From the NCBI RefSeq assembly GCF_900114615.1, contig NZ_FOTS01000013.1, positions 62,001-126,000 of the forward strand: 64,000 nucleotides of DNA. Direction: 5' to 3'. Both the position numbers and the translations under genes were made by a program. This DNA comes from Pelosinus propionicus DSM 13327. Its GTDB lineage: Bacteria; Bacillota; Negativicutes; DSM-13327. This document shows, piece after piece, positions 63,327 through 64,000 of the stretch; position 1 is the first letter of the stretch, and each line of letters starts with the position of its first letter. The notes beneath the pieces are model-generated. The model was given only the letters and a program-made list of their open reading frames with translations, searched no databases and was not told the origin of the DNA.

Positions 63327-63402
<76 letters not shown>

Positions 63403-63479: not shown

Positions 63480-63511
63480 TAATGGTCAGAGAAAAAATCT
63501 CTGGCCATTTT
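63480..63511 (+). terminator. Second hairpin terminator
   Basis: AATGGTCAGAGA pairs with TCTCTGGCCATT, followed by TTAC. Confidence 0.7.
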
Positions 63512-63513
63512 AC

Positions 63514-63543
63514 TTGCAATCTTGTGTCATAAAGGGATATAAT
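63514..63543 (+). promoter_or_regulatory. Promoter of the structured RNA
   Basis: TTGCAA (63514-63519), an 18-base spacer and TATAAT (63538-63543). Confidence 0.7.
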
Positions 63544-63564
63544 TAGAAATAGATGGAAATTAAA

Positions 63565-63806
63565 ATATCGCCGTGTCTTGGGAGTGTTGTAGCACTCCCA
63601 AGCACGAGCAGGTGACCGAAGCACCTACACGTAACAGTAACTGTCCACGACGACAATTCTTATTATACCGTCATTTCATCCTAAATACAAGGATGCCATG
63701 GCCCGGATATAGGAATGACGCGGTTTGGCAGGGGCTGAGCGTCTGCATGCAATCAAGTCGAAGCAAAACGCATGTGTAGGTTGAAAAACCTGCACGCGCG
63801 TTTTTT
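63565..63806 (+). ncRNA. Structured RNA of about 240 nt with its own promoter and terminator
   Basis: No protein-coding gene is supported. A 3-way junction is visible: closing stem CGTGT/ACACG (63572-63576, 63627-63631), hairpin TTGGGAGTG/CACTCCCAA (63578-63602), hairpin AGGTG/CACCT (63610-63626). A second domain is closed by CGTCATT/AATGACG (63669-63675, 63714-63720) with inner CATCCT/AGGATG. It ends in a strong terminator (63769-63806, GTGTAGGTT/AACCTGCAC, then TTTTTT). It could be a riboswitch-type leader, a raiA/comFA-type motif or a 6S-like RNA; none is confirmed. Confidence 0.7.
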
Positions 63807-63837
63807 AATTTCCCTCTAAAACAGACTGCTGGTTGGC

Positions 63838-63903
63838 TTCTTCTATCTAAAGAGACGGTTTAGAACTGCAGTGTTTAACAGCACACTCCCGCCGATAGAA
63901 GAA
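63838..63903 (+). promoter_or_regulatory. Second structured leader before the next gene
   Basis: TTCTTCTATC (63838-63847) pairs perfectly with GATAGAAGAA (63894-63903), enclosing a 46-base region with GTGT/ACAC. It sits between the RNA terminator and the start of the next ORF. Confidence 0.5.
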
Positions 63904-63940
63904 ACCGCCTGCAGGATGAATAGATGGGGGGATATACATT

Positions 63941-64000
63941 GGTAGTAGTACAAGGTAAGACAAGGGCAGAATACGTAAGCCGCCGGAGAAGAAGCGCATC
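63941..64000 (+). CDS. Start of a gene running off the window
   Basis: From TTG 63941, 6 bases after GGGGGGA (63928-63934), the frame stays open to the end. Twenty residues are visible (MVVVQGKTRAEY...), with an Arg-rich stretch. Not recognised; ATG 63918 is in another frame and closes early. Confidence 0.45.

Follow-up and report, generated by a model that had tools for sequence, protein, structure and literature searches.

Background

The best-known examples of antisense attenuation come from the control of plasmid replication. In the sections of PMC5703833 used here, the 87-nt antisense RNA of pT181 is counter-transcribed to the leader, and systems of this type contain a pre-emptor that complements the 5' arm of a terminator-like hairpin preceding the target gene; the antisense RNA of pSK41, according to the same sections, works by sequestration of the SD sequence, without transcription attenuation (PMC5703833). 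Among type I toxin-antitoxin systems, excerpts of PMC4147584 describe SymR as overlapping the start codon and SD sequence of SymE and as thought to block translation, and the type I antitoxins tabulated there act on protein synthesis or mRNA degradation (PMC4147584). Clostridioides difficile, in the excerpted parts of a review, possesses many homologous antisense-controlled type I toxin-antitoxin modules, mostly with cognate-only action; the term "attenuation" is absent from this review (PMC6563280).

The window analyzed here, a stretch of 64,000 nucleotides from Pelosinus propionicus DSM 13327, contains near its end a structured region that looks like a pair of overlapping, opposite RNAs resembling a genetic off-switch. 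Our reading, to which we assign a probability of about 0.75, is that of a chromosomal, cis-encoded antisense-RNA transcription attenuator that would keep a small downstream gene off. By sequence, the locus shares with the pT181 type an antisense RNA that is counter-transcribed to the leader and has its own promoter and terminator, an intrinsic terminator that the leader carries ahead of the target start codon, and a pre-emptor, inside the antisense footprint, whose sequence complements the 5' arm of that terminator.

Two putative convergent RNAs

The initial annotation had described positions 63565-63806 as a single RNA, independently promoted, structured and ending in a strong terminator, in a stretch without a convincing gene. 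This interpretation is partly supported. The terminator and the promoter, a sigma-70-like -10/-35 pair, were both recovered on the plus strand, and the region is indeed more organised than random, the minimum free energy of 63550-63810 (plus strand) being -97.4 kcal/mol compared with a mean of -68.0 (sd 4.7; z -6.2) for 200 dinucleotide shuffles. However, the locus appears to encode two convergent RNAs rather than one, and the conserved multi-branched fold, although real, belongs to the antisense RNA on the minus strand, as judged from the counts of G-U and A-C pairs. The only plus-strand ORF across the structured stretch, of 68 aa, is not needed to explain it because homologous copies vary in length there; the statement that no convincing gene is present holds for this ORF but overlooks the putative antisense-RNA gene on the opposite strand of the 5' half. 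The elements of the two RNAs are:

63514-63543, plus strand: sense promoter, with TTGCAA (63514-63519), an 18-nt spacer and TATAAT (63538-63543), from the promoter scan and the copies
63550-63806, plus strand: sense leader RNA of about 257 nt, its start inferred from the -10 box, its end at the terminator
63767-63806, plus strand: sense intrinsic terminator with a T run (hairpin 63773-63796 in the scan), upstream of the small-ORF start codon
63556-63660, minus strand: antisense RNA of about 105 nt, with a closing helix, three hairpins and a U-run terminator, from the match to covariance model R1, covariation and the T run
63662-63690, minus strand: antisense promoter, with -10 TATAAT (63667-63662), 17 nt and -35 TTGTAT (63690-63685)
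63577-63602: hairpin c of the antisense RNA; loop 1 (63587-63592) is hypervariable between copies
63609-63625: hairpin b; loop 2 (63615-63621) is hypervariable between copies

The promoter scan covered 2 kb and returned 10 promoter-like sites against 6.4 expected, so that the scan alone proves nothing about the sense promoter. Across 134 unique copies of the element, a TATAAT-type sense -10 box was placed in 114, as exact TATAAT in 107; a recognised box is missing in 17, mostly with TAATAT-like variants in its place, and the anchor is missing in 3. The best sense -35 box is TTGCAA in 86 of the 134. The parts conserved across copies are the 5' segment of about 125 nt and the terminator, with a middle of variable length. 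A near-perfect inverted repeat, AATGGTCAGAGA...TCTCTGGCCATT, occupies 63483-63511, between the tRNA-Ala region and the element, and is possibly a bidirectional terminator.

On the opposite strand, the window copy scores 114.7 bits against model R1, of which it is itself a part. TATAAT is present as the antisense -10 box in 77 of the 79 copies extracted from the loci of BLAST-positive genomes; as the box was part of the search pattern, its exactness in these 77 holds by construction, and it counts as evidence because the only copies that lack it are two that are cut off or broken. The antisense -35 box (CTTGT/TTGTNT) is weak, matching three of the six positions of TTGACA in most copies; CTTG(T/A) precedes the -10 box by 17 nt in 66 of the 77 copies and by 18 nt in 5, and in 6 the best-scoring -35 box is spaced by 15 nt. 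The T run at the antisense 3' end comprises at least three residues in 33 of 33 alignment rows and at least four in 22.

For one alignment, RNAalifold yielded -35.2 kcal/mol on the antisense strand versus -14.1 kcal/mol on the sense strand. All pairs of the antisense structure together include 316 G-U and 8 A-C cells. Because choosing a fold on a given strand biases the counts towards G-U there, the strand comparison was restricted to pairs whose commonest type is Watson-Crick; these retain 87 G-U versus 8 A-C cells, compared with 12 G-U versus 34 A-C cells on the sense strand for the best sense-derived structure of the same alignment. In alignment A1 (33 sequences), 99.4% of the cells pair and both sides change in 6 of 29 pairs, all of them in hairpin c (6 of its 10 pairs), the other three helices varying on one side only. 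Covariation among homologues, the check that had been suggested for the conserved fold, is real in this domain: the score for A1 is 0.163 versus 0.098 for shuffled alignments, none of 500 shuffles scored as high, and slid-partner controls reached 0.062 at most.

In the terminator hairpin, G-U cells outnumber A-C cells on the sense strand by 144 to 3 (96 distinct sequences drawn from the 128 of 134 copies in which a terminator was found; the pattern found none in 6). Together with the counts for the antisense domain, these numbers show that the two halves of the element are selected on opposite strands, the antisense strand for the 5' three-hairpin domain and the sense strand for the terminator hairpin. 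We consider the prediction of two convergent RNAs that form an antisense attenuator to be well supported by sequence.

Spread of the element

BLAST detected homologous copies, often several per genome, in 20 of 60 related genomes, the closest relatives being members of Pelosinus; the genome of the window itself contains 6. Within the class, model R1 had matches in 33 of 380 genomes, from 17 of 102 genera; in a sample of the phylum, it had matches in 3 of 398 genomes, including the window's own. Match counts in both samples include weak echoes on the opposite strand. A scan of a species-genome collection with the exact pattern yielded 78 stretches, in Pelosinus, Sporomusa, Propionispora, Propionispira, Anaerospora and Desulfosporosinus as well as in MAGs labelled Massilibacillus, Sporomusaceae, Selenomonadales, Firmicutes or Bacillota. 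A single genome carries up to 24 readable copies, and the hosts are Negativicutes (Pelosinus, Sporomusa and others) and Desulfosporosinus. In one copy of the window genome (L034, 151-288, minus strand), a group II intron (RF02003) directly follows the U-run of the terminator and separates the attenuator from any cargo.

A phage collection and a plasmid collection contained no match to the element. One IMG/VR contig (L214) carries, by eye, apparently the same sequence as a copy from another genome (L080 of G017), and is for this reason not taken as a sign of phage origin. At the Rfam gathering threshold, only the tRNA-Ala at 63327 matched; at a permissive threshold, the matches were at chance level, with no 6S, raiA, riboswitch or SymR above the curated score, so the comparison that the initial annotation had envisaged supplies no known-RNA name. 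A SymR-like Rfam match (E 1.6) was judged to be due to chance, and PADLOC gave nothing convincing, its one weak row being Cas1b (E 0.009). No description of the element turned up in searches of the open-licence literature on antisense RNA in Pelosinus and Sporomusa, on DUF6809, on SymE, or on attenuation and type I toxin-antitoxin systems.

A conserved pre-emptor and a predicted switch

Two short complementary segments would form the core of the switch:

63623-63632, plus strand: pre-emptor ACCUACACGU in the sense leader, within the antisense RNA footprint, exact in 70 of 75 copies
63772-63781, plus strand: 5' arm of the terminator, AUGUGUAGGU, complementary to the pre-emptor

The set of 75 is what remains of the 79 copies after omission of two truncated or broken copies, one that lacks an arm in range and one with a partly duplicated pre-emptor. 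Each of the five non-exact copies has one change, and the pre-emptor pattern is present in 51 of the 52 loci found by the covariance model. When folded, leaders that end after the 5' arm place the pre-emptor on the terminator arm with a mean probability above 0.5 in 68 of the 75 copies, the antiterminator not being favoured in 7, versus 0 of 75 full-length leaders, in which the terminator wins. For the window copy, the pairing probability is 0.87; shuffled arms have a mean of 0.05, and none of 200 reached 0.5 or more. Folding thus predicts an antiterminator in the nascent leader and a terminator in the complete one. The pre-emptor and the terminator arm hardly vary, so covariation cannot test their pairing.

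Complementarity beyond the terminator

The leader continues between the terminator and the small ORF with three further features:

63807-63818, plus strand: segment AAUUUCCCUCUA, complementary both to the transcript 5' end (63550-63561) and to the SD region, from the swap test
63835-63906, plus strand: leader hairpin before the SD sequence, GGCTTCTTCTATC (63835-63847) with GATAGAAGAAACC (63894-63906), from the sequence
63926-64000, plus strand: SD sequence GGGGGG (63926-63931) and a small ORF of 38 aa from TTG at 63939, which runs past the window

In the swap test, which covers 113 of 134 copies and the result of which is inflated by the relatedness of the copies, the native segment pairs with the 5' end at a mean of -10.44 kcal/mol versus -10.15 for the best of 20 random between-copy swaps, and with the SD region at -13.06 versus -12.82 kcal/mol. 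The UUCCCC:GGGG pairing between this segment and the SD sequence is standard or G-U in 415 of 424 cells (106 sequences). A second regulatory layer that acts through 63807-63818 is possible.

The UUUCCCC-SD complementarity also leaves room for translational control instead of attenuation. Conceivably, the same two RNAs would then act mainly after transcription, by forming a duplex that leads to RNase III cleavage or SD sequestration, and the sense hairpin would be mostly a stabiliser or a processing site. Apart from the 415 of 424 cells and the swap test, this possibility has precedents, as far as the excerpted sources go, in SD sequestration in pSK41 (PMC5703833) and in type I antitoxins (PMC4147584). 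However, such a mechanism needs neither a terminator with a U-run, nor strand-specific conservation of that terminator, nor a conserved pre-emptor, and we deem it rather unlikely.

Hypervariable loops

Within genomes, none of 189 copy pairs share both loops, with loop 1 alone shared in 6 and loop 2 in 2; between genomes, both loops are shared by 2 of 2737 pairs. In the 256 copy pairs that have diverged by at most 4% outside the loops, loop sites differ at 42-56%, compared with 17-18% for the middle, the leader and the ORF start; one of these pairs, from different genomes, has both loops identical, and identical copies were retained in this count because their prior removal would bias the divergence. 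The most copy-rich genome (G316) contains 24 copies of at least 85 bits and a decayed one; of the 25 loci taken, 24 are readable by the pattern, the decayed one included, and one is unreadable. The pre-emptor is identical in 24 of the 24 readable copies, and no two of them, in 276 pairs, agree in both loops: 9 pairs have loop 1 in common and 1 has loop 2, with loop 1 unparsed in two copies and truncated in one. These copies (L241-L265) are dispersed over one 5.18-Mb contig, and all readable ones have different loop pairs. A by-eye look at a few copies found no complementarity between loops 1 and 2 or between a loop and the leader. We infer that the diversity of the loops reflects selection for insulation between copies.

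The variability of the loops also bears on whether the plus-strand leader might be a ligand-sensing riboswitch, with the signals on the opposite strand as by-products. A long structured leader, a terminator and complementarity that could sequester the SD sequence would fit this idea; nevertheless, hairpin loops are the most variable sites, the 5' domain has its structure under selection on the minus strand, a minus-strand -10 box is present in all intact copies, and the cargo genes have no common pathway. We regard a riboswitch as very improbable.

Genes downstream of the element

The connection to the next gene, previously noted as a possibility, gains support from the leader, SD sequence and small ORF found downstream in most copies. 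At locus L081, the stop codon of the 38-aa TTG-start ORF overlaps the ATG of an 81-aa ORF (1049-1294), which suggests translational coupling; a TTG-start ORF overlapping the next small ORF (window 63939 onward, L081 935-1294) is what we take to be a mok/hok-like arrangement.

For 103 of 134 copies, BLASTP placed the ORF that follows in a family: 30 DUF6809-like, 21 YRTYRT (the window's own type), 21 SymE, 13 of a 55-aa Desulfosporosinus family, 10 of a family of about 105 aa and 8 of a family of about 135 aa. The remaining 31, classified from sequence by eye and not by program, include a 67-aa Sporomusa ORF (14), true DUF6809 (3, one at E 9e-24), ACT-PAS proteins (3), response regulators (3) and decayed, cut, disrupted or single cases (8). 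Both SymE representatives tested exceed the cut-off of Pfam PF08845 SymE_toxin (E 2.8e-11 and 1.1e-9); DUF6809-like proteins reach 2e-5 at best, below the cut-off, and the YRTYRT and 55-aa families have no Pfam match. Merging of the DUF6809-like group with the 135-aa family was rejected, given the low probability (16%) in profile comparison. The AlphaFold model of the DUF6809-like protein contains a helical hairpin only (pLDDT 76), and that of the YRTYRT family was too poor for use (pLDDT 49).

An ACT-PAS protein in place of the small ORF follows the attenuator at L049, L111 and L152, two of which are labelled Sporomusa acidovorans. In three copies of another genome (L207, L208 and L210 of G714), a short ORF overlaps the gene for a response-regulator receiver protein, as if the two were translationally coupled. 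The occurrence of regulators among the cargo speaks against an interpretation as toxin-antitoxin modules alone, and part of the cargo is probably toxin-like.

In 13 genomes chosen for carrying the RNA, 25 SymE genes exceed the cut-off, and 18 of these have an R1 match of at least 85 bits within 600 bases upstream in antisense orientation; for the others, a degenerate match (1), a terminator only (1) or neither (5) was found, the pairing having been done by hand from two lists. The recurrence of this arrangement at 18 of 25 SymE genes is at odds with a stand-alone, trans-acting small RNA on the minus strand that would be unrelated to the neighbouring small gene. Such an RNA would explain why the antisense RNA is conserved as a unit that has a promoter-like site and a terminator of its own, but not the conservation of a convergent sense promoter and of a sense terminator with its pre-emptor, nor the small ORF with an SD sequence downstream in most copies; we give this explanation hardly any credence.

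Proposed mechanism and implications

The attenuation scheme that we favor starts from what is seen in the copies, namely, both promoter-like sites, both structures with their selected strands, the complementarity, the multicopy spread and the diversity of the loops. The sense promoter would produce the leader, and a promoter facing it inside the leader would produce the three-hairpin antisense RNA. Without antisense RNA, the pre-emptor would pair with the 5' arm of the terminator, resulting in read-through and expression of the small gene. The antisense RNA would contact the nascent leader of its own copy, probably loop to loop, and pair across the pre-emptor, whereupon the terminator would form and transcription would stop near 63806. 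The two hypervariable loops would endow each paralogous copy with its own specificity. The sequences lead us to expect that both promoters are active, that the RNAs pair in the cell, that attenuation occurs and that the copies are insulated from each other.

The best reading of the element appears to be a family of insulated antisense attenuators that is, at least in part, toxin-antitoxin-like. The broader proposition, a chromosomal superfamily of mutually insulated attenuators with one conserved switch, two loops that serve as per-copy barcodes, two dozen loci in one genome and almost any small cargo (SymE toxin, DUF6809, unnamed proteins, regulators), seems to us an even bet. If these proposals are correct, up to 24 natural, apparently insulated copies within one genome would allow direct tests of the rules that govern RNA-RNA specificity and would amount to a naturally occurring set of orthogonal RNA switches that act on transcription; attenuation would be a new mode of type I toxin control, and several small-protein families without known function, DUF6809 among them, would acquire a regulatory context.

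Comparison with known systems

Like SymE/SymR of Escherichia coli, the element places a SymE-domain gene, in 21 of 134 copies, under a putative cis antisense RNA, and by sequence the RNA is antisense to the mRNA of the presumptive toxin, as in type I toxin-antitoxin systems. Unlike SymR, however, it is located in the far 5' leader, together with a terminator. The type I modules of Clostridioides difficile differ from the Pelosinus-type element in toxins, RNA and organisation. With pSK41, as far as the published description was consulted, the element has in common an RNA antisense to the leader about 100 nt upstream of the translation start and an alternative hairpin that involves the SD sequence, but, in contrast to pSK41, it conserves a terminator and a pre-emptor.

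The closest likeness is to pT181 and pIP501, in which, according to the sections cited, a counter-transcribed antisense RNA is likewise combined with a pre-emptor directed at the 5' arm of the terminator (PMC5703833). These plasmid systems control rep, whereas the Pelosinus element is chromosomal, with many dispersed copies per genome, and is followed by SymE, DUF6809-like and other genes instead of rep; it also differs in its exchangeable small cargo genes and hypervariable loops and has no sequence match in Rfam. Since there is no rep gene downstream and no match in the plasmid collection, the element would work like pT181 control without being a member of the pT181 plasmid family. As far as our searches go, a chromosomal, barcoded, multicopy and cargo-swapping family of this kind has no earlier description, and its mechanistic class is known from plasmids.
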